Assembly: GCA_023078555.1 (NCBI GenBank) | Contig: CM041196.1 | Coordinates: 1,178,001-1,242,000 of the forward strand | Direction: 5' to 3' | Source: Ulva prolifera | Taxonomy: Eukaryota; Chlorophyta; Ulvophyceae; Ulvales; Ulvaceae | DNA: 64,000 bases | Shown: in pieces, positions 1,795 to 52,558 of the stretch | Position numbering within the stretch: the stretch's first letter is position 1 | Layout of the letters: the number at the start of each line of letters is the position of its first letter | The notes under the pieces: generated by a model | Told to the model about the DNA's origin: nothing | Seen by the model: only the letters and a program-made list of their open reading frames with translations | The model's database searches: none | Translations under genes and position numbers: made by a program

Positions 1795-2200
1795 GCATGC
1801 ATGTTCTGAACGTGTACACCTTCACATACACAGTGAGCGTTGTTGAGATATGTCACAGCGTGTCTGCCTGATTCACAGCTGCAGCCTGCCACCGTTCGCG
1901 TCATCCAGCAAACATTCGCTCGCATGGACCGTTCTGTACACTCATGACAGCAATGCCTCGCTGGGCTTCTTGTTCAACGTTTCAGGCGTGCTGCACGTCT
2001 TTTCATCGACTGCATGGACCTTGAACTTTCCATTTGTAGATGTGCTCGCAACCCACATGAATGTGCAGTTGCGACCGATCACGAGGTCTCTAGCCCGCCA
2101 AACGGCCACCCCCGGCCACCCCCGAGCATGCCATAGTACCTTGGAGTTCAAACGTTCGCTGTACCAGGCATCAGTGGACCCACAGCCGTGCCGCCTGCAG

Positions 2201-4246
2201 GTGGCAAACTCCCTCAGCACGCTCGCCGCGATGCAGACCGACCTGCCGGCGGCGCTGCTGTACAGCGAGGTCGTCGTGCGCAAGGCGGTGCGGTGGAACG
2301 TGCCGCTCAGCGCGCTCGCGCTCAAGGTCATGCGCAACGAGGTCGTCGTGCCGCTGCTGGCCGCGCCCGTCGCGCTGCCCGCCCGCGCCCGCCGCTGCCC
2401 CGCCTGGCGCGTGCACCTCCACGCCATCACCATGCTCACCTACTGGCACGGCTACGACGTGATCGTGGGGTTTGCGGCGGAGCTCGCGCGGGAGGCCGTG
2501 GTCGATGCGCTCGGCGCGCCGGCGGACTCGCCGGAGCGCCGTGAGGCTGTCGCGGCGACGACGCCGCTGTACCGTGTTGCGCATGTCGTGACCGACGTGC
2601 TCGAGTGGTGGCGGCAGCCGCAGGCGCGGGACGTGCTCGCCGCGGTGCCGGAGGCGGACCTCTGGGCGGCGTTTGTGCTGCGCGCGCAGGGGGACTCGAG
2701 CTGGGAGGCGCAGGCGTCGCCGGTGCTCGTGCGGCTCATGTCCGGGGACCTCCCGAGCCTGCGCCGGCCGACGCCGGTGGAGCTGCGGCCGGGCGACATC
2801 ACCGCGTTTGTGCACAGCTTCAAGATGACGCTGCTGCGCTACCGCTGCCTGCAGACGCCGGCGGGCGTGCCGGAGTCGGCGGTCGTGCGCGCGCTGACGA
2901 TCTCGCCGGGGTGCCCGTCGCTGCGGGGCTTCATGCGCACGGCGGAGGGCCGCGCCGCATATGTGCGGCCGCACGCCGCGGAGCCCGGCCTCACCGGGGT
3001 CATCGTGCGCGCGCTCGCACGCGCCGCGCTGTCAGTCAACATGCTGCGCGACTCGGCGCTGCTGTGGCTGGACGGCGCGGTCGCGCGGAGCTCCGTTGCG
3101 TGGGGGTCCATTGTGCAGCCGTCGCTCGCCGTGCCGCCGCCGCACCCACAGACGCTGTTCGAGTGGATGGCGTCGACGGACCCGTGGACCGTGTTCGGGA
3201 CGTCCGTCGCGGCGCTGCTGGCCGTGCTGCGCGTCGTGGTGCGCCTGACGTCGGCGTTCTCGACCGCCGCGACCCTCTCCGCCACCCCGTCCCCATCGAC
3301 TCCAGCGCCGGCAGTGACCGCTGCTCCGGAGGCCCCACCGGCGCAGGCGAGCACCACCCGGAAGTCCTCCAAGCGCGGCGCAAAGGGGCGGCACAAGGCC
3401 GCGCGTGCCGTGAAGGCCGCCCCGGTGGCAGCCCGTGCAACCGACCCGAAGCCGGCCGCGGCGTCGGAGCCGGCGCCGCGGGCACCGGACCCGCCCCCGC
3501 CCCCGCCCGCCCCATGCCCGTCCGTCTTTGACCCCATTGCACAGCGCTTCCGCACCCCTGGCGGCAGTTCCGGTATGCACCTGCAGCGGGAGCTGCTGCC
3601 GCTCGCCGATGTTCCCGTCACGGCGTCCGCGGTCTCGCACCTCCGCACCGCGATGCTCCCGGCACGGCTCGGCGACCTCCGCCCTCCTCTCGCCGCCGCC
3701 GTCTGCGCCGCGCTGCCCAGCCTCCTCTACATGCCGCCCGCTGCGCTCGTTCGCTGTGCTGCACACGATGCGAAGGCCGCATCTCAGCCGCCGTCCCCCA
3801 CCGTCAAGACCGACGCGGACGCGAAGCTTTGTGCCTCTGACAGCCCGTGCGCCGGGGGGGAGTACATCCCGAGCAGCGGCGGCGTGCCGTGCGCTCACGA
3901 GCCTCCGACGACCGTCGCTCTGCTGGACCGGGTAGGGGGGGTGCAGGCGGGGGAGGAGGGGGCCGCGCTGTCGTGCGACCTGAGTGCGAAGCTGCAGGTT
4001 TACCGAAAGGAGGAGTGCGGCCATGTTCCTGAGCTGTTCCTCTGCCCAATTAGCCGCGAGGTTATGGAGAACCCTGTGCTTGCGAGCGATGGGCATGTAT
4101 ATGAGCGTGCACAGATCGAGGCGTGGCTACATGCGCACCAGACGTCGCCTATGACCAACATGGCCATGCGGCCCGAGGTGGCGCCGGTGCTGTCACTGCG
4201 CAGTGAGATCCAGGCGTTCAAGCAGCGTTTCCCACACATCGTCTGA
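2201..4246 (+). CDS. U-box domain E3 ubiquitin ligase
   Basis: The C-terminal 70 or so residues form a U-box: ELFLCPISREVMENPV, then a DGHVYER segment, then W and SPMTN, the usual fold that recruits E2 enzymes without zinc. The reading frame is open from 1850, but composition jumps to high G+C near 2200, just after a good acceptor (CTGCAG at 2195-2200). I therefore start the supported coding part at 2201; the first in-frame ATG there is 2231. The N-terminal about 330 residues are Ala/Leu/Val-rich and helical with no recognised fold. A Pro/Ala/Lys-rich low-complexity linker follows (about 3280-3530). The stop is TGA 4244-4246. The family role, substrate ubiquitylation, is inferred from the U-box alone; the substrate is unknown. 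Upstream exons may be missing. Confidence 0.8.
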   Translation: MANSLSTLAAMQTDLPAALLYSEVVVRKAVRWNVPLSALALKVMRNEVVVPLLAAPVALPARARRCPAWRVHLHAITMLTYWHGYDVIVGFAAELAREAVVDALGAPADSPERREAVAATTPLYRVAHVVTDVLEWWRQPQARDVLAAVPEADLWAAFVLRAQGDSSWEAQASPVLVRLMSGDLPSLRRPTPVELRPGDITAFVHSFKMTLLRYRCLQTPAGVPESAVVRALTISPGCPSLRGFMRTAEGRAAYVRPHAAEPGLTGVIVRALARAALSVNMLRDSALLWLDGAVARSSVAWGSIVQPSLAVPPPHPQTLFEWMASTDPWTVFGTSVAALLAVLRVVVRLTSAFSTAATLSATPSPSTPAPAVTAAPEAPPAQASTTRKSSKRGAKGRHKAARAVKAAPVAARATDPKPAAASEPAPRAPDPPPPPPAPCPSVFDPIAQRFRTPGGSSGMHLQRELLPLADVPVTASAVSHLRTAMLPARLGDLRPPLAAAVCAALPSLLYMPPAALVRCAAHDAKAASQPPSPTVKTDADAKLCASDSPCAGGEYIPSSGGVPCAHEPPTTVALLDRVGGVQAGEEGAALSCDLSAKLQVYRKEECGHVPELFLCPISREVMENPVLASDGHVYERAQIEAWLHAHQTSPMTNMAMRPEVAPVLSLRSEIQAFKQRFPHIV

Positions 4247-5534: not shown

Positions 5535-6327
5535 ATGTCCGGAGTTCGTCGCAGGCTTAAAGGCAAGAAAGCCCCGAAGGGATGGCTGCAGATGGAAGAG
5601 GCGATAGAGGATTTCGAACAGCAAATGAAGGAAGCCGTGAACGAAGATCATTTGGGGAAGCGAAAGTGTCAAGTGACATGGAAAGTCCATCGGATACACT
5701 GGGAGAAGAATCGATTCATATACGACCTCATGTATGTAAGAAAGGCAATAACAAAAGAACTGGTGCGCGTACATCCCAGCACGCTGCTGTGATCAGGCCG
5801 GTGTGCCCCGTCCGTGACGTCTATCCATTTGCAGTTCGACTGGCTAACCAAGGAAAAAATAGCAGATGCAGCGCTCATAGCTAAATGGCGAAAACCAGGA
5901 TATGAATTTTTGTGTTCCATGCTTGCAATACAAAAGAATGGACACAATTTTGGGACAACTTCACATTGCCGTGTGCCACTGAAGAACCGAGCTTCTGCAC
6001 AACGAGTCACTCCGGATGTAAACACAGGATGTGTCAGCTGTGCATCATGTACGCCCTAGCTTTTTGTAAAATGATTCCTCAGCACAGATTTTTCCTGGGT
6101 TCAATCACCCACCGGTTGCTTGTTCAGGTGACAGCCGTTTTGGTGGGCCCATCTGGTGGAATACACCTCTGAAAGATGAAGACGATGAGGCTGCCGAGGA
6201 AGAGCATCGGACACAATGGGAACAGGACGGGGAAGCAGCTGCGAAGCGCAGTCGTCCACAAGAAGATGATGACGACGAGTTGCCGGAGGATGTCCAGGCA
6301 CGATTGAAGGCTTTGCGTGGCGAGTAA
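5535..6327 (+). CDS. BUD31: BUD31/G10 pre-mRNA splicing factor
   Basis: Exon 1 (5535-5768) gives a Lys-rich start and the hallmark GKRK...RIHWEKNRFIYDL...RKAITKELV. Exon 2 (from 5835) gives ALIAKWRKPGYEFLC and NFGTTSHCRVP, as in BUD31, a component of the activated spliceosome. Two ends are possible. Reading on gives TAG-type termination at 6059. Using the donor GTACGC at 6049 and the acceptor TTCAG before 6129 completes a TGT codon and adds an acidic tail (DEDDEAAEEEHR..., DDDDELPED) ending at TAA 6325-6327. The second is preferred because the junction regenerates Cys and the tail frame is open. Several conserved zinc-cluster Cys are replaced (see findings). It is head-to-head with the DUF7148-like gene. 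Confidence 0.82.
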
Positions 6328-7339
6328 GCCGTTACTGCGAGAAGTAACGGGCGACACGTTCGTCAGATGCCTTTGCTTTGATATGATCCCGAAACATTTG
6401 GAGAGCGTGTGCCCCCAAAATGCAAAACATCTGTAGACGCGAGATCGCCAGAGCGTCATACCAGACAGGCAGCAGTGTCATGCGCCATGATCACACGTTT
6501 GTTAGATTCATGTATGCCCAACGCGGAACAAGTCCTCTGTAGCCGATCTGACTGTGGTAGAGCGTCTTGGCAGGGGCACTCTCATGGTCGTTGGCAAAGC
6601 TGACCATGCTTCGAAACCTGAGATCTCAAGTCTCGTGTCCGCCAGAAAATGAGAGGAAAGTCCGAATAAATAGCTCATAGTCCCTTCGTGTAATGCAAAC
6701 ACAGCACGACCACACGCGGTGGCACCCACGTCAGAAGTCCCTGCAGCTGGGCTTGTTTACAATGAGCACTGTGTGATCGTGGAAGGTGGCTCATCTTCAT
6801 GTTTTGCGGTACGATCAAGTTCAGCCGAGAGCGAGGGAGTTTTCTTTGTTGTTGTGCCCCTAGTGAGCCTTCCACGTGTGGATCGCCATTGAAGCCAAGA
6901 TACTGGCGGGCCGGGCCTGGGCAGCGTGTTCTGGGCACTCAAACCCCATCATCAACAAGTGGAAGAGCGAATCAGAGTGCGAACGGATACAAAAGCTCGA
7001 AGTGTTACCCCATCCGCAATCAGACAGCGGATGGCTCCTTCAGGGAAGACCTGTCAGCCTGTGTGGCTGTCTCGATGATCCGATGGATGGTGGAGTAAAC
7101 CGAGATCAGGGCTAATGAACAACCATACTCACCACTTTGGCATCTAAAAGCCACACCACTTCAGGCCTTGGGGACTTACTCACACAGGTACATGTGAGCA
7201 GGATGTATGGCCGCACTGTTGCACGGAGCCTGACAATGCTAGACTGATGAAGCAGACAACACGTTTCGTCTGATAATTCGTCTGCTAAACGAATAACTTA
7301 TGTATGTTGTTGTCTGTGGGATCAAGTTCCGCCATGGGC
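6328..7339. other. spacer, no supported gene
   Basis: I see no supported gene here. A stretch near 6870-7110 (+) is open in two frames after a plausible acceptor (CCCCTAG at about 6861), but neither translation resembles a known family and codon use is not biased. The spacer separates the 3' end of BUD31 from the 3' end of the minus-strand unknown at 7340. Confidence 0.4.
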
Positions 7340-20447: not shown

Positions 20448-21854
20448 TTAGTGATCAGGGACAACCTCCTCGACGATGGTCTCGGCGTTGGAGCCAGCGG
20501 TGGAGCCCCCAGCGTTGCCGTCGGCGCCGTCATATGTCTCGCAGCCCTCGATCTCAAGGAACTTGGAACCAGTGGCGGCGGTGACAGTGGTCTGGGCCTC
20601 AGCAGAGAGGCAGCCGGTCTCGACGATGGCCTCAGCGAAGGCGAATGTCCAGACCTTGGCGTAGGCGACAGCAGCACAGTTGGTGTAGGCAGCAGCCCAG
20701 GCAGCCTCGTTGCCACGAGCGCAAGCCTGCACCTCAGCCTTGGCGAACACAGAAGCAGTGAGGTCGATGAATGTGGAAGCCTGGGCGATGGAGAGTGACA
20801 TGACGTCGACCTCGCAGTGGCACGAGGCGTACGCAGATGCCACAGCGGAGGCGTGGGCGGATGCGGTGGCCTCAGCCCAAGCAGCGGCGGTTGCGGAGGC
20901 AGAGGCGCAGCCAAAGGCGTTGCCGACAGAGACGCAGTCAGCCTGGGCGGAGGCCACTGCCTTGGCCACAGCAACGCCAGCGGCCTCAGCATAGCCAAGC
21001 ACCTGGACGATGGAGCCAGTCCAGTCCTCGTCACAGAACGCGGTCAGAGCCTGAGTGCACAGGTGGAGGTGAGCATCCTTCATGTCAGAGTACACTGATG
21101 CGGATGCAGAGCTGCTGCAAGTGGCATAGGAACCGGTGGAGCCCCCAGTGACGGTGTATGCACCATGGCCTGTTGTGCCCTCATCGCCCTCGTTGCCCTC
21201 ATCACCCTCATTGCCCTCGTTGCCTTCGTTACCCTCATCGCCCTCGTTGCCCTCGTTGCCCTCATCGCCCTCATCGCCCTCTTCGCCTTCGTCGCCCTCA
21301 TCGCCCTCGTTGCCCTCGTTGCCCTCATCGCCCTCATGACCCTCGTTGCCCTCGTCACCCTCGTTCCCCTCGTCTCCTTCATCGCCCTCATTCATCTCAG
21401 CACCTTCGTCGCCCTCATCGCCTTCATCGCCCTCGTCGCCCTCATTGCCCTCGTTGCCCTCATGTCCTTCGTCACCCTCATTGCCCTCATTGCCCTCGTC
21501 GCCCTCGTCTCCTTCGTCGAGGCCTTTGTCCCCCTCGTCACCTTCATTGCCCTCATTGCCCTCGTCCCCCTCGTCACCTTCATTGCCCTCATTGCCCTCG
21601 TTCCCCTCATCACCCTCATTGCCCTCATTGCCCTCATCGCCCTCGTCACCGACGCCATGGGCAAGCGTGTGCGTGTATGTGTATGTTGGCTTGATCAGGT
21701 GGGTGTGTTCCCAGGCGAAGGGGTCTGGTGACACCATGGAGGTCAGCAGCTCGCGGCCGTGGCGCACGCCGGTGGCGGCCATCTGCTTGTGGCCGACGGT
21801 GTGATCAACAGAGGATGCTGCTGCTGCGGCAGAGCCAGCCATCATCATGCTCAT
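20448..21854 (-). CDS. Ala-rich, Cys-containing protein with long Gly-Asp/Asn-Glu repeat
   Basis: From ATG 21854 the frame gives 468 residues. There is a short Met/Ala-rich start, a linker with a His/Tyr/Thr-rich segment, then about 50 triplets of Gly-(Asp or Asn)-Glu. The C-terminal domain of about 230 residues has small residues alternating with others (ASASATAAAWAEATASAHA, AVAYAKVWTFAFAEAIV) and about a dozen Cys. Alternating Ala/Ser suggests beta-rich or silk-like packing, and the Cys suggest an oxidising compartment; both are inference. The frame stays open upstream past an acceptor (GTGCAG before 21875), so a first exon with a signal peptide may lie near 22.0-22.2 kb, below a TATA box. 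The triplets link it to the secreted protein at 8.6 kb. No family is recognised. Confidence 0.75.
   Translation of the reverse strand: MSMMMAGSAAAAASSVDHTVGHKQMAATGVRHGRELLTSMVSPDPFAWEHTHLIKPTYTYTHTLAHGVGDEGDEGNEGNEGDEGNEGNEGNEGDEGDEGNEGNEGDEGDKGLDEGDEGDEGNEGNEGDEGHEGNEGNEGDEGDEGDEGDEGAEMNEGDEGDEGNEGDEGNEGHEGDEGNEGNEGDEGDEGEEGDEGDEGNEGNEGDEGNEGNEGNEGDEGNEGDEGTTGHGAYTVTGGSTGSYATCSSSASASVYSDMKDAHLHLCTQALTAFCDEDWTGSIVQVLGYAEAAGVAVAKAVASAQADCVSVGNAFGCASASATAAAWAEATASAHASAVASAYASCHCEVDVMSLSIAQASTFIDLTASVFAKAEVQACARGNEAAWAAAYTNCAAVAYAKVWTFAFAEAIVETGCLSAEAQTTVTAATGSKFLEIEGCETYDGADGNAGGSTAGSNAETIVEEVVPDH
21178..21650 (-). repeat. coding minisatellite, 9-bp unit
   Basis: A long array of a 9-base unit reading GAG-GGC-(A/G)AT/C on the minus strand, encoding Glu-Gly-Asn/Asp, with about 50 copies. 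Variation is mainly the Asn/Asp switch and synonymous third positions. A few units have drifted (Lys, His, Ala-Glu-Met, Leu-Asp). Synonymous diversity implies the array is old or maintained as protein. Confidence 0.9.
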
Positions 21855-22264
21855 CACTGATGCGTAGATCCTGCACGGCAAACATGGTAAGGCAGCTGCA
21901 TGGCATCCTGTGACATGGTAAGGCCAATATATTATAGTATATATTATTCTACTATACTATATAGTAGTACTGGCATGCATGTCAAAACCTAAATGGTGTG
22001 AGAAACACTGTACATGTCAGCCAAGGCTGCGGCTGCCGGTGACGGTAGAACAAGTGTTTGCGCAAGAATGGTGCAGAGCGTGGGAGGCGTACATGGTGTT
22101 AGGGTTGGGGTGTGGAGAGGCTGTGGAGAGTGGTGCTGAAGCTGGTGGCACTATTACTGCAGAAGCAGTGGAGAGTACGTGTGATAGCTTGAGCAGGAGG
22201 AGCTGTTGAGAACAGGTCGAAGCTGATGGAGTGTTGGTAGACAAATCGTACTGGGTGCGGTGCT

Positions 22265-28266: not shown

Positions 28267-31200
28267 TCATCCGACGCCTGCGCCGCCCTGCTGCACCACC
28301 TTCATGTGACTCGCCGTGCTGTGCATCTCGTTGTGCACGACGACGTGCTGCAGCATGACGGCGATGAGGGGCGCCTCGGCGAGCATGCGGCGGTAGGCCG
28401 CCGCCGGCAGCCGCAGCACCTCCGCGTCCGCCGTGCACACCGCGCCGAAGGAGCGGCGCTGGCGGAGGAAGAACTCGAGGTCGCCGGTGACGCCGCCGGC
28501 GCCGTAGCGCAGCGCGCGCGCCGCGCCGCCGCGCCGCGGGGCGGCGGCCGCCTCGGCGGCAGGCGACTCGAGGGAGCTAAACACCTGCGCCTCCCTGCAG
28601 CCGCAGCATGCTGGTCACAAAGCGCATGCTTCACATGCATTGGCGCGCCGGACAGAGGTGCGAGAGAGGATGTGCAAGACGACCAAGCGGGCCACATTCT
28701 CTGCTGCAAGCAAACAGCAGATCGGATGATGATTGATGGGCCATCAATCAATGATGGCAAATGCATAGGCAGCCAGGAGGCAAGTCCCGCACGGCGGCAA
28801 CGAAGCTAGACAGGTCGTCCACCTTATCACCTAGAGCAGCGCCACCTTTCCGGTTGCAGGTTCCAGTAGATACCAGAATCCTCTAGCTAGGCCTGATGCT
28901 ACACTCCCGAGCGGGATACACAAGGAAGACACGTGCAGCGGGGCAAATCCAGCAGCACCCCAACGGCAGCCCGAGCGCGCGGCTGCGGCACGTCTGCGAC
29001 TGCGCGGCGTGTACGACAGCGCACCGCGTGAACGCGTCAAAGTCCCACTCGCACATGATCTCCCCGCTGAGCACGATGTACATCGCCGACGCGTCGTCCC
29101 CGGCCGCGTACAGCTCCTCGCCGGCGCGCAGCCGCACCGTCTCTCCGAAGCGCTGCAGCCCCTCCGCGACGTCGGCGGCGGAGAGCGCGGGCAGCATGGA
29201 GCGCGACGGCTGCGCCTGTAGCCACGGCGCGAGGTGCATGTCGACGACCTCTTCGAGGCGGAGCGCGCCGCCGGCGCTCGGCATCAGGCCCTCCCGCACT
29301 GCCACCTGCGCCACCCCGCGCACGCCGTCACATGCATGCGCTGCTGGAATGTACGTGAGCACCCGGCGTGCCTGTCACATGCAAGCCAGAGTCGTCCCTG
29401 AATGGGACCCTTCTCGGGCCGGGAAAACCCGCCTAGCCGAACCAGAATGCCCTGCGGAGGCCACGGAGAACCAAGGTCGCCACAGCTGGCGTGTACATGC
29501 ACCTCCTCGAATTGAACAATCAAGGTAACTGGAGAACACGTGCACCGCGCGATAACGAGTAGGATCACCCAAAGGATCGAGTGTTGTGCAGTGCCACACG
29601 ACGGCCGCCTCTAGCAGCCGCGTGACCATGCATGCTGCCCCGCATCAAACCCAACGGTGCATCCGCCGGAAGCGGGCGAGCGAGGAGACGGCTCTAGCGC
29701 AGGGGCGCGCCTGCAGGAAGTGCGCCTCACACCACGCCAGCGCGTCGTCCAGCGTGTCGAAGCACGGGCACGTCCCCGACGGCGCGTCGTTCGCCTCCCC
29801 CGGCGGCCCCTGGCCCCCGTCCCGCGCGACCACGCCGTTTCCGACCAGCAGCGCCCACCGCGGCGACGGCCGCCGCACGCCGGTGATCACCAGCGCCACG
29901 CCGCACGCCGCGCTCGCGAGCCTCATCTTCTTGAACGTCGCAGCTGCCGTCGCGTCCATGCCAGAGATCCCCGAGAAGTCAAGTAGCAGGAAGCGGCGTG
30001 CGGCGTGCAGCGCGGCCGCCGCGTGCGCGAGGTCGAGCCCCACGAGCCGGCTGTCCGCTGCGGCGGCGGCGGCGCCGCCTGGCGCGTCGCCGTCCACGTC
30101 CCGCTTCTCCACGCCAGAGTGTGCGTGGGGGAGGGCCCCGGGGCCGCCGGCGGGGGAGGAGGAGAGGGAGGGGAACTTGCGGAGGGCGGCGTCGAGGCGG
30201 GCATCGGAGTCGCGCGCCGCGGCGGCCACGGCGACGGCGAGGTCGCGCACGCGGTCGCCGAGCAGCACCGAGCTGCCGAAGAAGACATACCCTGACAGCG
30301 ACACCGCCTGGCTGCACGGCACAGCCCCCAAATCAAGGGTGTGTGAACGTGTAAACAGGGCGAAAATGCATGCAGGGTTCACTTGGGGCACCTCCACAAG
30401 AGCAACCATAAGCTGTGGCTACGCATGCGCATGGTAGAGCATCATATACAGTCACCCAAGAGCATCATATACAGTCACCCAAGAGACGATTGCAAGCTCC
30501 GTCTTGGACAATGGAGAGCTACGCTTCACCATGGACCACAGCGCGACAGGGAGCGAAGGGGTAGGAGTTTGGAGATCACACATGTGGGAGCGGAAGAGCT
30601 CGAGGACGGCGCGCTGGCGGTACGGCCGCACGCATGAGCTGATGCTCGCGATCGCCGTCAGCGCCCGCACCTGCATGGCAGCAATACGACATGACCACTC
30701 GGCGGGTGCGCTTTGCATGTACGACACCATGCCGCCTGAAGCCACGAGCAGCACAGGCTGCCACCGGCGGCTTTGGTCAGTCGCCGGCTGGACTGCTACA
30801 GACGACCGAACGGGTCCAGACACAGCACTCCGGCACACCCCTTCCAGGCCACATAGCGCAGCACACATTTCGAGGGGCGCTGCTGAGTCTGCATCCTCAC
30901 AAGTAACAATCCACAACTACAAAGTGGTCGTGTGAGCAAGTGGGGCCTCCTGGTCATCCGCGCACACCACCAACAAGCCGACACGTGCAAGGACGGCGCA
31001 CCGGCATGCATACACTAGCACCCATGCATGAGCTCACACGCATGCACACCTGGACCTTGGAGTACTCCACCGCGAAGTGCAGCGCGCAGCCGACGATCCC
31101 CACGGCGATGCCGACCTCGAGGCCCGTGACCGCGAACTGCGCCGTCGTGACCATGATGACCGCAAACACCGCGAGCGTGAGGGCGTACTCCGTGCCCGTG

Positions 31201-34200
31201 AACCGTGAGTACGACAGCACGAGCCAGTCGAGCGAGATCTCGAGGCCGAAGACGAGCAGCAACGCGCCGTAGTAGAAGTTCGGGAGGAGCTGGATGACGG
31301 AGGCGGGCACGAGGAAGAGGGCGGCCTCGGCGACGGCGAGCAGCGCGCCGTTGACGCGGTGCGTGCACCCTGACCGCATCGTGAAGATCGTCTGCGAGAA
31401 GATGTAGGAGCCGGTGAAGCCGACGCCGCAGACGCCGGTGATGAGGTTGCTGACGCCGACGGTCACGAGCTCCGCGTTGTAGTCGACCTGCGGGGGCGCG
31501 GAGGGGTCGCCGGGCGGGGGTGCAATGCATGCTGTGCGTGCGAGGCGTGGCCGGGGGACGAGCTCTGTGGTCGAGTGATACAGGGTACGGGTGTTGCTTA
31601 CGGGCAGCGTTGGGTCATCGGGCCCGATTACATAGAGCAATTCCGAAATATAGGTCTAATTTCTGGATGGCAGCCCCGGGAATGCTGCAAAGCGACCCAA
31701 CACTGCTTACAGGGGGAGTGGAAGAGCCATGCGCAAATGTCGCAACTTACAAACACTTGGGAGCAGCACTGCAGCCGCTGTGTTCATGCCGTGATGCAGA
31801 ATTCCACTATATGTAAACACTGTACCGTACTAAATTCCAAAGTCCATCGACAAAATTGGCAGCGTTTCATGGGGTCTGGGTCTAATGAATCTGATTTGTG
31901 TTGGGCCAGTCACCCTGAAAACTACTGATTTTATATACCTAGCTAGGTACCTAGTAAACCCAGCGTTATGCGTTACATGTCGATGGACTTAATTTAGTAC
32001 GGTATTACACAGGTGGTGCTATGTATGCTTGGGCAGGAGGGTGCGCGTGACTGGGTTGCCGGCAGATGCAGCCGTATATATATGCTGCGCACAAGACACA
32101 TGCTTTGATATCGAGCCACACCTGTGCACATCACTGGCCCGGAGCCTCCCCGTAACTTCAGGCCTCGATCTAGGCCTCAAGTGACTGGAGGAATGGGGCC
32201 TCCCTAGAAACGATGACAATGCCACACTGGCACCAGTGGTTCACGAGCAGGCGGTGTCCAAGCATGCAAACATGCACACCAAGCGTGCATACGGATGCGG
32301 TGGTATGAGAATAGCGGGGCGAGGCACACCTCGTACGGCAAGCTCGCCTGGATGGCGGTGATGTCGAGGCAGCTGCCGAAGAGCACGACGCTGAAGAGCG
32401 CGAGCGTCATCGGCAGCTGCCGCGCGAGCACGCCCCACGCGATGCGCTCCGCGCGCCACGGCAGCAGGTCGTACAGCTCGTACACCTCCCAGAAGGCCTG
32501 GCCGCCGCGGCCCGCGTCCGGCATCGTGACCCAGCCCGCGTCGCCGAGGCGCTGCAACAGCTCGGCCCAGGTCGCGCCGGTGGCGATGGTGATGCCAAAG
32601 AGGGTGATGTAGTACAGCGCCGGCACCTGCGGCACGGCGGGACTTGCGTTGTTCTTCTCGAGCGCCTTCAGACGCGGGGACACACGGGGTACAAGTCTCA
32701 TTGCGGCATTCCTTTGTTGACATCAGGGCTGTACGAGACGGCAGTATCAGCGCCCGGGAGGGGAGAATCACAGTATCATTGTACATGTGTAACGCGGGTG
32801 ACAGATAAACCAGAGGAGGGGAGTGCCCGTGATGTGGTGGCGGCCGCCGGCAGGCGGGGGGGGGGGGGGACCAGCCAGATACACACATTGCACGAGCTCG
32901 GACCACTGTTTGGCAGGGCACCAGAGCATCGCAGCCAGGCCTCGCAACCAAACACAGCGGCTTGAAGATGCACAAACCATACACCCCAACACTCATGCAG
33001 CTTGTCCAAGTGCCAGAGGTGCCGCACCAGGCAGAGCACGGTCGGCATGCACAGCGGGTGGCGCCAGTTGCGCAGCGTGAGGTAGATGAACGCGAAGCTC
33101 GCGAAGCCCGCCGCGGTGCGGGGCCAGCAGTCCGCGCCGAAGATGAGCGCCCACGACGGCAGCGAGCCGACGGCCTTGCCCGACGACTGCGCGGCGCCGG
33201 CGGCGAGGCAGAAGTAGCCGACGTACCCGAGGTACCCCGCGACGACGGGCAGCGGGATGTACGCGATGAGGCCCGCGAGCTTGCGCCTGCATGGAGTCAT
33301 GCATGGTGTACATGCATGCGTGAGCCTGTGCAGCAGCCGAGGCGCCGTGTGGGGGTACCCCTGGGAGGGCAGCCGCTGGAGCGCAGTGGTACAGGGGTGA
33401 GGGATCCCCTCTCGAGAGGGGGTTTCGTTTTCAAACGCAGCTGAATTAATCCTCACTGTGAAGCGAGTCAGCGCCGCGACACGAGCTCTGGGGGGGTCCC
33501 AGTTCACTACGAGCTACGGGCCACTCACGTGCCGCGCGATACTGCAGCTGGACTGTTCTGCACGGTAGTAGGGCCGCAGAGTGCAAGCACGTTGCAAGCA
33601 CGATGCAAGCAAATCGCAAGGACATGGAGGGCAGCGTTGCACTGTGGCGCGGCCGTGACTGAGCTAGACCAGCAGCCATGGCTGCTGAGCTAGGCGCTGC
33701 CGACTGGATGTGCATTGCATGCTCGATGAGGCGATAGTGATGCAAGAGGTGGCAGTGGCACACACGTGACATATGCATGCCAGAGGCTGTGCTGCACCGG
33801 CATGGCAGAAGTACTGGAGAGGGAGGGAGAGGCGGGTGGCCGCACTTGCCAACGATGATGAGGAGCACTCCGGTGATCGCTGTGGAGAGGGTCATCGCCA
33901 GCAGCGTGGTCGTGACCATGAGGCGCTCCGTTGCTGCTTGCTCCTCCTCTGTTTCACCACTGACTGGCAGCAGAGACGTGACGCTGGTGGACATCGCAGA
34001 CAGGAAGATGAGGCCGACGTCCTGGACCTGGCCGATGGCGAAGGGCAAGGAGGAGAGGCAGGAGAAGGTGACCTGGTGGATGGCGGAACCAAGAAATACG
34101 AGGCGGGAGAGGGCGGGCATGAAGGGGATGAAGCGCTTGCTGGGAAACATGATGGCGACATATGCCAGCGTGCAGGGGAGGGAGACGATGGTGTTGATGA

Positions 34201-35007
34201 TGCCGACGACGATGGCGTCTGAGAGCTCCTGTGCAGACGTCTGGGGGGGCTGGTGGGTGCTTTCCTGGACTGTTGATGGGGCATTGGGGAGCAATGGCGT
34301 GGCCGCACTCGCCTGCAACACGAATATGAGCACAACTTGGCGTCAGATTACGCCAACAGGTGCAAAAGTTTCAGTTCAACTGATTCTTGGTGGTGGATGA
34401 CTGTGTGTCCCAAGCATGGAGCTGTCGGAGGCGTGCAACGTACCTGTCCCTCTACAGTTGGACGACAGGACGAGGCAAAGCTCCCGGAATTGCGAGCATG
34501 CCTGGCGCGCAGTGACTGTGCAGAATCGCTGATTTGCAGAACAGCGGCGTCTGCTGGTGCTCCCGGTGCTGGTGGTGCCTGAGCGTCGTTGTTGAATGGG
34601 CCCATGTCCGCGATGGAGTGGATCCGCTGCATAGCGGCGACACGATGATACAGGCCGCGGCGACACGATGATACAGGCCTCTGCAACGGCAGCACGCAAG
34701 TCCGACAGAGCAACAACAGAGGATGAGGCAGGTTCGTGGGTTCCACCTCCGTTGCCGTGCTCTCGGTCCGGCTGAAGCTGTCACCGTCGTTGCTGCCCTG
34801 GTCCAGTGATGGCCTGCGGCCAAGCGAGGGTCGATTCTCCAACACCGAATGCTCTCGACCTCGAAAGGATCCAACAGCTCCAGCTGCTGCCAGATTGTCC
34901 AAGAACGACATGTTGAAGCTCCCCGAGGCTGGTATGCTACGGGGCGCCGCATCCTGAGCCCGGGCTGGGATGGCCACAGCTCGCGAGTCTCGGGGTGAAG
35001 CAGACAT
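28267..35007 (-). CDS. SulP (SLC26) permease with STAS and cyclic-nucleotide-binding domains
   Basis: Nine minus-strand exons (34444-35007, 33846-34312, 33028-33286, 32330-32626, 31050-31487, 30582-30670, 29651-30311, 29025-29305, 28267-28594) join in phase to 1127 residues. The order is a 190-residue Ser-rich cytosolic N-terminus, SulP membrane segments (IPLPVVAGYLGYVGYFCLAAG; ELVTVGVSNLITGVCGVGFTGSY; PNFYYGALLLVFGLEISLDWL), a STAS domain (GYVFFGSS; FLLLDFSGISGMDATAAATFKKM; FDTLDDALAWCEAHF), then a cNMP-type barrel (LRAGEELYAAGDDASAMYIVLSGEI ... GGVTGDLEFFLRQRRSFGAVC). This resembles the YGR125W/VSB1-like SulP subfamily of fungi and protists. It probably moves anions or amino acids across an internal membrane under nucleotide or conformational control; substrate and ligand are inference. 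The exon 7 donor (GTTTGA) is the weakest junction. Confidence 0.88.
30436..30484. repeat. 23-bp tandem duplication in an intron
   Basis: The unit AGAGCATCATATACAGTC... (23 bases) starts at 30436 and again at 30459, within intron 6 of the SulP gene. Confidence 0.85.
32856..32869. repeat. poly(G) run, 14 bases, in an intron
   Basis: A G run on the plus strand within intron 3 of the minus-strand SulP gene. In the sense direction it is poly(C), about 230 bases before the acceptor of exon 4. Confidence 0.8.
34634..34679. repeat. 23-bp tandem duplication inside SulP exon 1
   Basis: A 23-base unit beginning GCGGCGACACGATGATAC occurs at 34634 and 34657. It lies in the Ser-rich N-terminal coding exon. 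The unit is not a multiple of three, so the two copies are read in different frames, yet the overall frame stays open. Confidence 0.85.
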
Positions 35008-35050: not shown

Positions 35051-35773
35051 AGCTGGGAATCATAGGCTAGGCTGATCATGGCCTGACGTACGTCACTTTT
35101 CCCGGAGGATGCAATCGCAATTAGCAGTTGCCTTGTCGGCGTCGACAAGGGAGCTACTTCGCACGTGAGTCGGGGAGCTCGCATGTCTCATGTGCTCCAC
35201 ATGCTTATGAGGCGTCACGCGAGACAGTACAGCTTGCTGCATTCTCCTGGCCAATGTCTGGCCGGCCTGCGGCCGGACTGTCGGCATGCATACGGTGTCA
35301 CCAACATGCTGCCCAGATGCAGAGTGTAGGCGTTTTCAGTCACAGCGATGTTTGCAATTCAAAGATCGCACTGCCGCCTCTGAGGTCCCCTACGTGCTCC
35401 AAAGCTGGACATGATAGCGCTACGGCGCAGATTCGCGGCATGCCTTGATGCAAATGTGATGCAATTGTGATGACTGTTACACCTACACCACAACAGCTCG
35501 GAGGCGGACGCAGAGGTGGCGATCGGCTTCCCCCCTGGGACACATTCCCCGACCTCCTGCCCTTGAAGCCGCGACAGTGCCTCCTGGTCATGGAAAAAAC
35601 ATGGCTTTTGGTCAACATCGGCAAGATCTGGGTGGAAAATCTCTACATCAACCTCAGCCGTACAAGGGTGCAGTTGAACTTAGCTCACATGTCAATGTCC
35701 AATAGGATACGGCTCAGTAAATTCAGATTTACGTTATTTTACATCACTGCTGGGGCACGCAGCGGAGAGGAGT
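35051..35773. other. spacer, no supported gene
   Basis: The upstream flank of the SulP gene. A plus-strand frame (35467-35877) is open into the retroelement fragment but lacks codon bias or motifs. Confidence 0.4.
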
Positions 35774-36511
35774 GTGAGCCCAGAATGGAGCGGAGTGATA
35801 CCACGGCACCCACGAAGCCCGCCGATTGCGGGCACCGCCCAGCCCGCCGCGACGCCGCCAGCGCAGATCGGGGCTGAGCAGTTTGAGGCTGTCCTGCGCA
35901 ATCTGGAGCGTGGAAAGGCCGCGGGGCCGAGCGGGTGGATGTATGAACACATCCGCTGCGCCGGCCTGTACGTCGAGCGCACAGGGGAGGCTATTCGGAG
36001 GTACACAATTCTCATCCTGGCCGGGCGGATCGCCCACTCGGTGAACCTGCTCGCGTCCCGCCTGGTTGCGCTTGAAAAGCCGTCGAGGGCCCCACAGCCC
36101 AGTGCAATCGGCGAGACCTTCGTTCCACTGGCCAGCATGCACGCCCTGCCGTGTCTGCCGGACACCGGCGCCCTGCTGGCCCCTGTTCAGATCGGCGTCG
36201 GCATCGAAGGCCACGCCGAGATCCCAGGGCATGCCCTGCGGCCGGATTTTGCGGACCCCGACACCGTCCCGGTTGCCACGGACCTCCGGAACGCCTTCAG
36301 TGAGATGTCCCGGGAGACGATGAGGGCGCAGCTTGCCGAGACTCTGCCGCAGCTCCTGCCGTACTTCCACACATGTGTACAGTGTACGGGCAGGGCAGCC
36401 CGCGCATCGCCATGCGGCCGGACGGCACCACCGCAGAGCTCTGGAAACTTCACCACCGCAGAGCTGCGCAGGAAGTCTCCTTCTAGCTTGGTGCCGTCGC
36501 TCTGGTGGTGA
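35774..36511 (+). pseudogene. broken non-LTR-type reverse transcriptase fragment
   Basis: A G+C-rich island carries the finger/palm start of a reverse transcriptase: a segment with GKAAGPSGWMYEH, then RLVALEKPSRAPQPSAIGET, then LLAPVQIGVGIEGHAE and DLRNAFSEMSRETM. This matches RTs of LINE-like elements often seen in algal and other eukaryotic genomes. After about 36370 the conserved continuation (a VYGQGSP segment) lies in another frame, so there is a frameshift. The region that should hold the YxDD catalytic motif, the endonuclease and the 3' tail are absent. It is a decayed fragment, not an active element. Confidence 0.75.
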
Positions 36512-37194: not shown

Positions 37195-39727
37195 CTATCG
37201 CAGCTTCCGGAACGACTGGAAGCCTGACAGCTCCGAGAAGTACGACTCCGTGCCGCCCGCCCGCGCCCCCATCTCCACCGTCGCCTCCTCCGCGCGATTT
37301 GGGTTCTCTAGCTCTATCCCCTGCGCATGTGAAAACGCAAGCGTCGAGGCCGTCCCCGACAGCATCCCCCCCGCACCAGCCCCCTTCTTCATCGCCTTCT
37401 GCATCGCCAGTTCCTTCTTCTTGATCTTACTCGCTGCCTGCATCACCTTGAGCTTCCCGTGGCCGTCTTTCCCCAGCATTCCAAGCCCAAACATCTCATC
37501 CCCGTCAATATACTCCTCCTCGACCTTCCCAAACTGCATCCGGTTCGCCTGCTTCATCATCTCTGTCGCGGCCATCTTCTCCTTCTGCTTCCGGAACCTC
37601 GCACCCCCACGCCGCTTCTTCGCGACTGCGTCCGGCTTGGGCAGCGGCTTGCTGATCGCGGCCGGCGGCGGCTCGAGCTGCTTCTCGAGCGTGCGCTGCA
37701 TCTCGGCGCGCATGCGCCCGCCCTGCGCGCCGTCGCGGCCGCCGGCGGTGCCATACGCGTCGAAGCGCGCGAGCAGTGCGACCTTGTTTGCGACCAGCTT
37801 CGCGCCCTTGCGGCGGTGCTCCGGCGGCAGCGCCGTTACCATCGGCGCGCCATACACAAAGCCCTGGTTCGCGCCGATGTTGGCGCTGCTGAGGCCGGCG
37901 TTGATGCGCTTGCGCTGCCCGAGCACCTGCGCCACATGCCACACGCACCATCAGCGTCAGCACCTTCGTGGCGCCGCCACGGTGCCGCCGGCTGCTGCCA
38001 GCAGTTTGCCCACCCCACACATTACAAGCGCTCGAACCGTTGTATGCCACAGTATAACAGCAAACTACAAGGCATCGCAACAGAAGGCAGCAGGTCACAC
38101 GGCCCACGCCCCCTGCGGCGGCTTGGCGTCTACGGCAAGCTCCTTCAGAACTGACGCAGTGTAAAGCTCCATTCAAACAGCACACCCAACACAGTGGAGC
38201 CAATGGCGGTTCCAGGGCGTGAGGAGCGCACCTGGATGTTGCATGCTGGCATCGTGCTCAGCGGTACGAGCCCCCCCGCCGCGCCGACCAGCTTCGCCGC
38301 GATCTCCGCCCCGCACACCGCCGACAGGTTCGGCGCAACGAGCGCCATACGCGAGCCGACGAAGCTGTGCAGCTTGGCGCGGTCCGCGTCGAGGCGCTGC
38401 GCGAGCGCGCATGCGTCCATCACCTTGCGCAGCTCGGCGGGGGGCAGCGCCTGGCCGTCCGTCGTCGAGGCGGACACGGAGACGGTCATCTGGACGTGGC
38501 GGGGGATGACGTCCTCGAGGTCGATGGCGATGACGTTGTCCTCGTTGCCAATACGCTCGACGACGCGCGCGTACGCGAGCGGCTCGAGGACGAGCCCCTC
38601 GAGCTCTGGGAAGCGCTTCTTGTACCTGCACGCCGAGATGCGGAACGTGATGTGCTAGTCTACAGCATGTGGTGCTCTGTGGCATGAGCACCGGCTTCTC
38701 TGAAGGTGCTGACATGTTGATGAATCAAATGGCTAGACAAAGGCACGCTAATTGGCCTGGAAAAACTAAGTGTGGTGTGACCTATCGAGATCGTCACAGC
38801 GGCGTCAGGATGAGGAGTACGCGCAAGGACAGGCGATGATTGCCCTGGAATCTGCCTGCTCTGCTTGTTCTGACCGGCAGTGCAGACAGTGCATCAACTC
38901 CGAGGCAAGGGCGAGGGCATGGCGGAGCGCCAGGCAAGGCACACATGGAATCAGAGCCACGGACATACGTAGATGTTACTGTGTTCATATGGAGCAGTGG
39001 CAAACCCGGTTGCAGCAGGCAGACGGCTGCAACACCGCTTCCTTGCGATTAGCAAAGCATCAAGCAGGACTGCAGCAGACACAGCGCAGCCAGGGAGCCT
39101 GCTGCATCGGCTGTGCATCCTCCAGGCTCCGTCAGGCATGGCATGGAGCAACACATGTCAGTCTGCAGCGTGAACGTTGCGCACTTTTGCTTGATGAAGG
39201 CGTGTGTCTTGGTGATTTCATCATCGACACTCATGGCCAGCTCGTTGCAGGTCACGATCAGCCTGTAAACGGGGTCGGCGTCTGATGGGCCTGCCCAGGA
39301 ATCAGGCATAGCGTCCCCATGCTTAGCAACCTCTTCATCAACCTTGCGCAGCGCGTCTTGGTATTTCTGTGTGCTGGATAGAGTAGCGATGCTGTGAATG
39401 TCGTCCGCTTTGAGGGACTCCAAGTCCATGAACCCCGGCTCCTGCAGGCCTGGGTGCGTCAACGCAGGTTAGTGTCGCGAGAGTATCACTTGAAGTAGCT
39501 TTTAATCGCAGACATTGGGGTGCACCGCAGTTTCGGGATACATGCGCGGGCAAGCTGTGGATGCATGGTGCCCACACACATGCCTTGCAGCAGTCAACAT
39601 GTTCTTGCGGAATATTGCGCACCTGTTTCTCATCTTCCTTGACAAAGATGTCGTTTTTATCGACATCTTCATCGCCGTCTGACAAAGCATCAAGATCAGC
39701 AAGGAATGCGTCTGTCAGTGTGGCCAT
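37195..39727 (-). CDS. PRPF31: U4/U6 snRNP protein PRP31
   Basis: Four minus-strand exons (39623-39727, 39185-39441, 38232-38625, 37195-37926) join in phase to 495 residues, close to the usual length of about 500. Features in order: acidic N-terminus; a coiled-coil/NOSIC start (DSWAGPSDADPVYRLIVTCNELAMSVDDEI); YKKRFPELEGLV; the Nop domain with DVIPRHVQMTVSVSAST and VAPNLSAVCGAEIAAKLVGAAGGLVPLSTMPACNI; then the Prp31 C-terminal domain (KKRRGGARFRKQKEKM...KQANRMQFG, SGTASTLAFSHAQGIELENP, SYFSELSGF). It binds 15.5K and U4 snRNA and stabilises the tri-snRNP. All three donors are GTGCGC. It is divergent from RPS18, about 550 bases away. Confidence 0.95.
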
Positions 39728-48357: not shown

Positions 48358-51300
48358 TCACACAGCGTGCTCCAGCGGCTCCCCCCGCAACGCGCTGCAG
48401 CCGCGCTCCTCCGCCAGCACCCGCGCCCGCACGCGCTGCAGCACCGCCCCGAGCATATTCCGCCCCGTGCCCGTGCGGCCAGCGCCCCAGAAGTAATCGT
48501 TCGGGCTCGCCTCGACGAGGTGGACCTCCTCCTCCGCGGTGCTGAGCAGCATCGCGCGCGGCCCCGCGTGCCGCCGGAACTTCTCGAGCACGGCGGCCTC
48601 CATCACCGCGACCTTCGACTCCGCCCAGTCGGCGCGCACGAGCTCCGCGTCGACGCGCTCATGGAAGCGGCCGCACCGAGCGGCCTCCTCTGGCGACGGC
48701 GCAGCGACGATCTTGTCGATGACCGCCTCGGAGCGCTCGCGCACGGCCGCGGCGACCGCGCCGTCCGCATGCATGAACTTCTGCGCCTGGTAGAAGTGCT
48801 CGACGCTCGCCCAGCGGCACTGCAGCGCGGGGGCGGCGTCGGCGGCCGGGTGGTCGGCCTGGCCGCGGGGCATGTCGATCGGGTGGGGGGAGAAGTTGCT
48901 CAGCGCGCCCCATTCGTCCCACGCCTTGAAGAACTCGACGACGCCGCGCGTGCCGCTGCGCTGCCGCCGCATCGCGGCCGCCACGGCCGCCATCGCGTCG
49001 TGCATCTCCCAGCTCTCTGATAGCGCCGCGCCGCCGTCGCGCGCGGCCGTAGCGGCGCCTGCGGCAGCGCCGGCTGAGCCGGCGCCCGCAGTCACAGTGG
49101 CGAAGCCGCCGCCGCCACCGGGTGACGCAGCGACCATGCTGCGGAGGAACGGCGGCATGGCAGTCGCGCTGCCGACGGGCTCGGAGCGCTCGAGGAGCTT
49201 GCGGTAGAGCGCAAAGGCGCCACCGGAGGAGGGGAGGGAGCCCTGTGCGAGGATGTCATCCTCGATGATCTCGTACGTCGGCTCCAGCAGCGGCACGGCC
49301 TGCACGGCAGCAAGATCACCCACGGCCCACATTGTTCGGCGTCATCTGCGTAGACCGATAGTAGAGGCGTGGGTGAAGGGGGGGGGTGAGGGGGGGGGGG
49401 GGGGTCTTCGGTGCTTACTGCCTCTCCTCCTTTGTCCGTGCAGCATCATTCTGAGACGTCGCCACATGGATGACGATGCCGCACTGCAGGTTCTCCACAT
49501 AGCGGCAATGAGGCATAGGCGCGTTTGCGGTCCAGCGGACACTGAGGCCAAGCCACACCACACGTCGCTGCCGCCACGCATTCCCTCCACATGCCCAACA
49601 AAAGAGCGGAGGCTCCATCAACGCGGCTGCACTGACCAACACTGCACATGTCGTGAGCGACCCACCCGAGCCTAAAGCAACATCCCTCAAGCATGCACAC
49701 AATCACGGCCGCCGCAGCCAGAGGGCAGAGACACCGACTGCAAGAGCTCCGAGCAACAGAGCGGCCCACAAGCATGGCACAGGGCAGCGCCGCGCCTGCG
49801 TCATCTGCACGAAGCCGAGGTTCCCGACGGGCGTGTAGCTGTTCGTGCCGCCGATGATCTTGGGCGCGATGAACGTCATCACCTTGTGGATCGTGCCGCT
49901 CGCGAGCGCCGGCGCCGCGAGGGTGCCCCCGCACTCCCAGAAGCACCGCAGGAAACCCCGATCCGCGCAGTACGCCGCGACGTGCGCCGGCGTCAGGAAG
50001 TCAAACTCCACGACCTCGACGCCGCGGTCGCGCAGCGCGGCCTGCGTGCTTGGGTGCGCGCCCTGCTGAGTCATCACGATCGTCGGCGCCACCGACACGT
50101 CAAACACGTTCGCGTCCTGCACCCCGCCCTGGGTTTAGATCACTGCGGGGGTGATCGGGGAACAGCACTCACGCCGCTGGAGATTGGACTGCCTGCTAGT
50201 CCAAGAGCCTGCCCACAACGAGCCCCCCCCCACCCCCACCACCACGTAATCATGATTTTCTGGGTGGCAGGCCCAACAAAGATTAAAGTTTTTTTTTACC
50301 TAGACCCCATATAACGCTGCCCTAGGTGTCCATGCTTTTGATTGAATACGGTATATCATATCCGTGCACCAGCAACCAACAAGGCGGGAGGCCCGGGGGC
50401 GCACCGGCGGGAGGTCGAGGCAGCGGGTCATGATGACGCGCGTCGGGAAGTGGCCGCTCTCGCGCCGCGTCGTCAGGCGGGGGTTGTCGCGGCGCACGGT
50501 ATTGCCGCCGACGATGACGGTGTCGCTCGCGGCGCGCTGCTCAAACACGCGCTGCCGCGACGCCGCGTTGCTCACCCACGCGCTGTGCCCGGTGTGCGTC
50601 GCGATCTTGCCGTCGAGGGTCATCGCGTACTTGAGCGTCGACATCGGCACCCCGAGCACCTCCCGGTGCAGCAGCGGCTGCAGCAGCGGCGCAGTGTTTA
50701 AGCTCTCTCTCCAGCAGCAGTGCGGTGTGCCTGCCATCCGCGACCGCCTGTGTGTGATAGCTTGACAGCTCCTTGTGCCAGTGTTGTAAACGGCACTGTA
50801 ATGTAGATTGTGCTGGTGCTCAGCCATACAATGGTAGAGTTTGTGTAAGTCGCGTATATGATCTGTGAGCGGCATTCTGCTGGTGCATTGGGGGAAAGGG
50901 GGGGGGGGGGGGGGGGAGTGCACGAGTGTGACAGGCTGTTTCAGCTGAGACAAGGGACAAGTTGCGGGGGCATGCGGCGTGGGAAACCTTGTGGCCGTGA
51001 GCCCTCTGTATAGAATCACAAGTGCGTGGGTTATAAATATAAGCGCGCAGAAAGACCAGCGCAGGCTGACTCCATGGCGAGGGCTGACCCGCAACCTGCA
51101 AACACCTGCGCTCTGCACATCTGCGGGCATCGCAACGATGGCCATACGTGCGGCCGGATGGGTGTATGTGACTTGCATGGATGGTAAGCCTGCAGCATGT
51201 GATCGGAATCGTGCAGGGGGCTGGCTTTGCTAATGGTGTACCCCGCTTTCGGGCATGCATGTGAAGGGGGAGTGCGTCAGAGAGGCCAGAGTGCACGGGA

Positions 51301-52558
51301 TTCGCCTTGCCACAGAGAGGACACATACGGCGAAGCTTCGAAATCAGACTCACAGAGTCGGAATGTGTGGTTGCAGGGCTGTGCGAGCGCGGCGTGCTGT
51401 TTGGCGGCGGAGAGCAGCCAATTCGAGAGCAGAAGCAGGTCAAGGTGGCGATATGTGTGCCCGATGCCATGGAGGGTCACTATTCGCCTCTCATGTGGGA
51501 CCTGCTGGCCTTGTGTATTGAGCGTTGTTGCATTATGCACGCCCAGGCAGCGCACAGTGGTGCATGTGGACGAGGGGATGTGAACACATTTGATGGTGAT
51601 TAAGCCAGCATGCTCAAACAGCATGACTTTGAGAAGGCACAACTGCACCATCAGGATGAAAATGCCACTTGGCCTGGGAGACAGAGCATGCAGACCAGAT
51701 TGCCGGCCAGATGAGTTCAGATTGTCAGGTGTTGGACGGCTGTGCTGGGGATAGATGTATGCGAGGCAACTACTGCTGCTGTGGCGACGACACAATTGGA
51801 AAGGCAATGACAGGTGCCCTGACGCAATGAAAACAGATGCAGATGCCGAGATACGCACCTCGTTGGCACGGAGGCAGCTGCGTAGCGCCTTGTACGCGGT
51901 GGTACCTTCTGTGAAGGCCTCAGGATGTGCTTCGACAAGCTGAACTTCGATGCCACTGGCTTGCAGTATGCTGACAGCAACCCCCCGCATATGCGACAGC
52001 GGATGTCTATGGCCCATGACAACTCGCTTGACACCAGACTGGAGCATGAGCTCTAAGGCTTTGGTGTCGCCATGGCAGTCCCCTGTTTCGAGGTTGAGGT
52101 AAACGGTGGCACCTCGTGCAGCTGGGCCTGCATCCCGGAGCAGCTGCTGCTCCGCCGACGGGGCACCTTGTGCCCGCTGATATGCTTTCCCAGCAACAAC
52201 GCCATCTTTGGTCACGATTATAGCGCCGTGATTGGGATGGGGGTATGTCAACCCCTCGGACGTCAACGACAGCTCTGCAGCCTGCTGAACGAAGGCAATG
52301 TCGGACTCTGCATCACACGTTGTGCACTTGACTGCATCTGAGACGTACCAGCGCAATTTGCTGACCGTTGTTTCCACAGCTTTGCGCGTCTGCGACCATA
52401 TCGATCATGCACGGGTTGGCAAGGTCGAGGCCGCTCACAACCTGGTGAAGCAAAGCACAGCATTGAATTCTGCAGCTTGAGTAGATCCACACCGAGTAGA
52501 TTACTTGCATAGTGTTGAGGAATGTTGTATGCGCGTCGCTCAGTCGTAATACGTCCAT
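48358..52558 (-). CDS. PYRR: pyrimidine reductase PYRR: inactive deaminase + RibD reductase + NADAR
   Basis: Minus-strand exons 52442-52558 (tentative), 51859-52389, 50405-50677, 49796 (or 49781)-50116 and 48358-49299 join in phase to about 727 residues. Exon 2 is RibD-deaminase-like (GLTYPHPNHGAIIV ... ATVYLNLETGDCHGDTKALELM), but the zinc motifs HAE and PCxHxGxTPPC are degraded (SAE; no paired Cys), as in plant PYRR. Exons 3-4 are the reductase (STLKYAMTLDGKIATHTGHSAWVS; VGGNTVRRDNPRLTTR; FWECGGTLAAPALASG). Exon 5 is a NADAR/COG3236 N-glycosidase domain (WGALSNFSPHPI; ASVEHFYQAQKF; SPNDYFWGAGRTG). The gene is expected to reduce the deaminated ribosylaminopyrimidine in plastid riboflavin synthesis and to destroy damaged intermediates. 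The N-terminus, and thus the transit peptide, is uncertain. Confidence 0.88.
49391..49404. repeat. poly(G) run, 14 bases, in an intron
   Basis: Within intron 4 of the minus-strand PYRR gene. In sense it is poly(C), about 90 bases before the acceptor of the last exon. Confidence 0.8.
50898..50916. repeat. poly(G) run, 19 bases, in an intron
   Basis: Within intron 2 of the minus-strand PYRR gene. In sense it is poly(C), about 220 bases before the acceptor of exon 3. Confidence 0.8.

Follow-up and report, generated by a model that had tools for sequence, protein, structure and literature searches.

A predicted SulP transporter of Ulva prolifera in which STAS and a cNMP-type barrel probably share one chain

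A gene on the minus strand of the Ulva prolifera DNA analysed here (a stretch of 64,000 nucleotides, hereafter the window) raises the question of whether a SulP permease, a STAS domain and a cNMP-type barrel are made as one polypeptide, and whether the barrel responds to cyclic nucleotides. The window corresponds to C1:1178001-1242000 of an assembly that totals 88.9 Mb over 44 contigs, which was the genome searched.

Gene model and domains of the spliced protein

The spliced model runs on the minus strand from 35007 to 28267 and comprises nine exons and eight introns, all in phase, which yield 1127 residues between an ATG start at 35007 and a TGA stop at 28269-28267. The introns are without exception GT-AG, each with a CAG acceptor, and the nine in-phase exons and 1127 residues proposed by an earlier sequence-only reading were thereby rebuilt. 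The exons are as follows.

34444..35007, minus strand: exon 1, N-terminal tail, residues 1-188, without Pfam match (open frame from the ATG to the donor CAG/gtacgt)
33846..34312, minus strand: exon 2, beginning of the SulP membrane domain, residues 189-343 (splice model and Pfam)
33028..33286, minus strand: exon 3, SulP membrane domain, residues 344-430 (3' end picked among in-frame alternatives)
32330..32626, minus strand: exon 4, SulP membrane domain, residues 431-529 (5' end picked among in-frame alternatives)
31050..31487, minus strand: exon 5, SulP membrane domain, residues 530-675 (splice model, Pfam, and phmmer against the PDB)
30582..30670, minus strand: exon 6, joining the membrane domain to STAS, residues 676-704 (class STAS model at 683-729)
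29651..30311, minus strand: exon 7, residues 705-925, STAS interrupted by about 78 inserted residues (Pfam and class STAS model)
29025..29305, minus strand: exon 8, linker and first barrel half, residues 926-1018 (barrel model at 976-1012)
28267..28594, minus strand: exon 9, second barrel half with the phosphate-binding cassette, residues 1019-1127, and stop (Pfam; barrel model at 1041-1106)

The G+C content is 66-76% in exons 3-9, 54-62% in the introns belonging to them and 50-62% in the introns as a whole, with exon 1 (62%) and exon 2 (61%) being less distinct. Exon 1 appears to be the least certain of the nine, as it rests on its open frame and on a candidate TATA-like element, CTATATAATAA, spotted by eye at 35050-35040, about 32 bases 5' of the ATG. 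Two junctions are not unique. The phase at the junction of exons 3 and 4 permits many in-frame joins, and the one used was chosen because its GTGCGG donor resembles the GTGCG donors that begin introns 2 and 8 and because it gives continuous SulP-like sequence. The donor of exon 7, TGG/GTTTGA, is atypical, and another in-frame GT (GCC/GTCTCC at 29689) leads to a protein 13 residues shorter. The fusion is retained under either choice.

In the spliced protein the N-terminal tail is followed by the SulP permease, STAS, a linker and the cNMP-type barrel. When Pfam was applied to it, PF00916 was matched at residues 222-612 (E 1.2e-13, 51 bits against a cut-off of 23.2) and PF00027 in two stretches, the best of which is 1048-1092 (E 2.4e-8, 34.3 bits against a cut-off of 27.5), whereas PF01740 at 708-852 reached 20.0 bits, just below its cut-off of 22.6. 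The permease and barrel matches predicted by the earlier reading were thus recovered above their cut-offs, and the STAS match was not. A STAS model made from bacterial relatives scored 49.3 bits over a pair of segments, 683-729 and 808-851, that flank the insertion of about 78 residues; the STAS domain expected of an SLC26/SulP protein is therefore detected with the class model, and PF01740 alone stays under its cut-off. A bacterial SulP-barrel model matches the barrel colinearly, at 976-1012 and then 1041-1106, relative to which about 28 extra residues lie directly N-terminal to the cassette.

A phmmer search of the PDB returned ten sequences at E <= 1. The strongest were the SulP structure 5da0 (E 5.7e-5) and a match of the barrel to the cyclic nucleotide-binding protein 5d1i (E 1.9e-4). 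A hydropathy run on the protein produced overlapping segments only, in which the helices are not separated.

Several neighbouring frames could be assigned in the window. Upstream of the SulP-barrel gene, a frame at 35684-36511 (plus strand) resembles part of a reverse transcriptase by eye, with no Pfam match at E <= 0.01, and 37195-37950 (minus strand) holds a frame of a Prp31-type splicing factor (Prp31_C, Nop). A U-box protein is found at 1847-4246 (plus strand). The open frame at 20448-21956 (minus strand) contains a long (D/N)EG repeat (NEGDEGDEG...) and is probably of low complexity. On the minus strand at 48358-52404, matches to a PF00383 deaminase (below the cut-off), RibD_C and NADAR follow one another in strand order in neighbouring frames. 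This looks like a riboflavin-pathway gene, presumably of the PYRR type of plants and algae.

Paralogue, bacterial relatives and the number of genes

A second SulP match is present on contig C2, at 9618369-9618566, and a barrel match lies 2.6 kb downstream of it, at 9621173-9621325. In this region (L037) the membrane domain, STAS, linker and barrel have the same order as in the window gene, and a single open frame, 6094-7233 of the region, spans STAS, the linker and the first barrel half. Identity between the hand-joined paralogue and the window protein is 45.3% over the membrane domain and 46.5% over STAS, and falls to 35.5% in the linker and 30.2% in the barrel. The similarity of both genes restarts at the CAG acceptor, with VAVREGL in the window gene and VAAASGL in the paralogue, and continues into the linker, where LRLEEVVDMH (residues 940-949, in exon 8) resembles LRLEDFVAMH. 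The genome holds at least this one paralogue, the count being a lower bound from two family searches.

The membrane domains also separate the barrel-tailed class from ordinary permeases. With the model made from barrel-tailed relatives, that of the window protein reaches 187.6 bits, against the 51 bits of the general PF00916, and that of the paralogue reaches 158.9 bits. The ordinary SulP that the genome encodes on contig C3 shows the reverse, its best exon scoring 24.0 bits with the class model against 113.7 bits for one exon with PF00916. Hence the membrane domain of the window protein fits the barrel-tailed class far better than the general family. Among the 30 PF00027 matches listed, none is closer than about 327 kb to the ordinary C3 SulP. 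The barrel scores 40.6 bits with the bacterial SulP-barrel model and other cyclic nucleotide-binding domains (CNBDs) of the genome score up to 49.5, so that descent from SulP barrels is not evident from the barrel's own sequence, which was rejected as proof of such an origin.

The bacterial relatives were obtained from a contig scan with a barrel-bearing alignment (A1), of which the best 80 of 395 relatives were kept, belonging to several phyla by record title. A scan with the window protein alone as query gave no relative among 48 pattern matches. Pfam was applied to 59 of the best 80, the 21 left out including L074 and L106, which have irregular match lengths, and in all 59 the three domains were matched at E <= 0.001, a figure biased towards barrel-bearing proteins because the query itself contained a barrel. 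These values do not support the view, put forward by the sequence-only reading, that the arrangement is uncommon. Bacterial transporters such as WP_241949021.1 (Shinella, 726 aa) carry the three Pfam domains on a single chain, ordered as in the predicted window protein. In the membrane domain, none of 82 bacterial rows (the 80 loci and the plasmid proteins P0002 and P0003; L045 and P0001 are one record) exceeds 26.8% identity to the window protein, and the four bacterial proteins that were aligned lack its long N-terminal tail and its STAS insertion.

A tblastn search of plasmids gave eight records, seven regions of which were read (H7 was left out). By alignment, three annotated proteins and one unannotated Caballeronia frame have the barrel. 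By eye, proteins of 586 and 502 residues end without one, and a Kovacikia frame ends at 512. The 586-residue protein, P0004 of Acaryochloris, is a class member that ends after STAS; hence class membership alone is no proof of a barrel.

The alternative to a single chain is a pair of genes, namely a SulP-STAS gene that stops at a TGA just past exon 7 and a separate barrel gene formed by exons 8 and 9. Retention of intron 7 would in fact lead to an immediate stop (HRWV and then the TGA at 29647-29645), the donor of this intron is the atypical one, and an in-frame methionine, Met933, is the eighth residue of exon 8. Against this, the stretch from STAS to barrel is open throughout in the paralogue, which therefore reads through whether spliced or not, and the VAVREGL just before Met933 resembles the paralogue's VAAASGL from the acceptor on. 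The bacterial relatives, moreover, are single frames with all three domains, and yeast Vsb1 is one chain (PMC13160679). We thus consider two genes very improbable. The splice model, the paralogue and the relatives together argue that SulP, STAS and barrel are probably joined in one chain, as the earlier reading had it.

Comparison with yeast Vsb1 and LtnT

Vsb1 (YGR125W) of Saccharomyces cerevisiae has 1036 residues and consists of an N-terminal tail, SulP, STAS, a helical junction and a C-terminal RmlC-like (cNMP-type) barrel (PMC13160679). Truncation of its barrel abolished activity, although most truncated forms were still vacuolar (PMC13160679). The authors modelled a dimer with a large barrel interface, considered nucleotide or metal binding unlikely and suggested oligomerisation (PMC13160679). 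The same study found Asp223 to be essential and needed for cationic amino acids, and cites LtnT, the latent nitrate transporter of Synechococcus elongatus, as a SulP transporter with a barrel domain (PMC13160679). Terms for STAS or cyclic nucleotides were not found in portions of the main text of PMC7440668, which also concerns Vsb1, and a figure legend in the portion of PMC5541321 consulted names a cyclic nucleotide-binding domain, with the carrier protein unspecified there.

The Vsb1-like layout anticipated from the sequence was borne out, as in both proteins a long N-terminal tail is followed by SulP, STAS, a linker and the barrel (1127 residues in the window protein, 1036 in Vsb1). With LtnT, as cited in that study, the combination of a SulP transporter and a barrel is shared. 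The same design being found in bacteria and yeast, it was already known; the two Ulva paralogues show the Vsb1/LtnT design in a further eukaryote. Among the literature matches listed, none was recognised as dealing with a eukaryotic barrel-tailed SulP, which is no proof of absence.

A presumed Vsb1 fragment, the spacing of which fits the residue numbers of the published Vsb1 study, was aligned with MAFFT against the window protein. Exon 2 holds the places of interest, Cys235 and Tyr239, together with a QVQD motif that ends in Asp286. In the alignment with this presumed fragment, Tyr227 of Vsb1 falls on Tyr239, Asp223 falls on Cys235 (Ile in the paralogue), and Glu278 falls on a valine, Asp286 being one residue before it, a placement decided by the position of a gap. 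In 71 of the 82 bacterial rows the QVQD motif likewise closes with an acid (Asp or Glu), so an acid near that place is a class trait.

These residues bear on whether the window protein is a Vsb1 orthologue that imports cationic amino acids into the vacuole. The shared layout and similar length, the common tyrosine and the acid one residue off the Glu278 place speak for it. The residue that is essential in Vsb1 (PMC13160679) is nevertheless a cysteine here and an isoleucine in the paralogue, and valine stands at the aligned Glu278 place, both according to the presumed fragment. On this alignment, carrying the substrate over from Vsb1 is unjustified, and orthology in this sense is quite unlikely. 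An anion would be a more likely substrate than cationic amino acids.

The phosphate-binding cassette and the role of the barrel

In barrels that bind cyclic nucleotides, the glutamate of the phosphate-binding cassette contacts the ribose and the arginine contacts the phosphate, and alanine is the usual residue at the place of Phe1068 of the window protein. The cassette, aligned with the 82 bacterial rows, is the following.

28438..28497, minus strand: phosphate-binding cassette GGVTGDLEFFLRQRRSFGAV, with Gly1056, Asp1057, Arg1066, Ser1067 and Phe1068

The bacterial cassettes resemble it in the glycine, present in all 82 rows, and mostly in the arginine (62 of 82), and differ from its Asp1057 in having glutamate in 81, the remaining one having aspartate. 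Arg1066 lies ten residues past the cassette glycine, aligns with the family arginine and is invariant in a five-row alignment. Hence, where the earlier reading had described Gly-Asp in place of Gly-Glu and a shifted arginine, the substitution stands, and the shift is ruled out because the arginine is in register. Of the Gly-Glu and Arg expected in a cNMP sensor, the window protein thus has Gly and Arg in register, with Asp for Glu, and the doubt on cAMP binding voiced earlier gains support from this change at a place where glutamate is nearly universal among the bacterial rows.

The paralogue's cassette reads Gly, Ala, Arg, Ser, Ser, with alanine at the place of the glutamate, and these two SulP barrels have drifted at this residue. 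Elsewhere in the genome, Gly-Glu-Arg is retained by 12 of 21 distinct barrel rows, a number that excludes duplicate segments and rows in which the cassette Gly or Arg falls in a gap. As PF00211 cyclase domains are also matched at three places, the genome probably uses cyclic nucleotides. A separate cluster of five PF00027 matches (L011, L013, L020, L021, L028) occupies about 2.1 kb at C1:8028267-8030383 on the minus strand and is tandem-array-like.

A barrel working as a cNMP sensor that gates transport would be compatible with Gly1056, Arg1066 and Ser1067 in canonical register, with the one bacterial row that also has aspartate (the change is rare, not unprecedented), and with a messenger that is probably made, as the cyclase matches and the other CNBDs suggest. 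The replacement of the glutamate, Phe1068 in place of alanine after Arg-Ser, the insertion of about 28 residues right before the cassette and the paralogue's alanine all argue against it, as does the opinion expressed for Vsb1 that nucleotide or metal binding is unlikely there (PMC13160679). Such a sensor is, in our view, doubtful. Although Arg1066 is kept, Asp1057 in place of the ribose-contacting glutamate and Phe1068 in place of alanine suggest that the response to cAMP or cGMP is probably weak or absent.

The reading that we favour, and hold to be reasonably probable, is that of a Vsb1/LtnT-type SulP transporter made as one polypeptide, in which the C-terminal barrel would mainly serve regulation or dimer formation and its cNMP binding would be weak or nil. 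Two subunits would dimerise by way of their membrane and STAS domains, and the barrel, hung on the linker past STAS, would pack against this dimer in the cytosol. Transport would depend on it as a regulatory element or a clamp, a role transferred by analogy from Vsb1, where its basis is a predicted model and truncations.

A further, rather improbable option is that this lineage's SulP barrel, having lost the ribose-binding glutamate (to Asp or Ala) and retained the phosphate-binding Gly and Arg, senses a non-cyclic phosphate ligand or free phosphate and couples transport to it. The natural variants Gly-Asp and Gly-Ala, both with the arginine kept, would be useful for telling a barrel that senses a ligand from one that is purely structural.

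The bacterial SulP barrels vary at the other contact. The cassette arginine is absent in 20 of the 82 rows (L064-L124; 13 Ala, 3 Ser, 3 His and 1 Tyr), with Gly-Glu kept. Given the arginine is missing in a quarter of these barrels, loss of cNMP binding may be common in the class.
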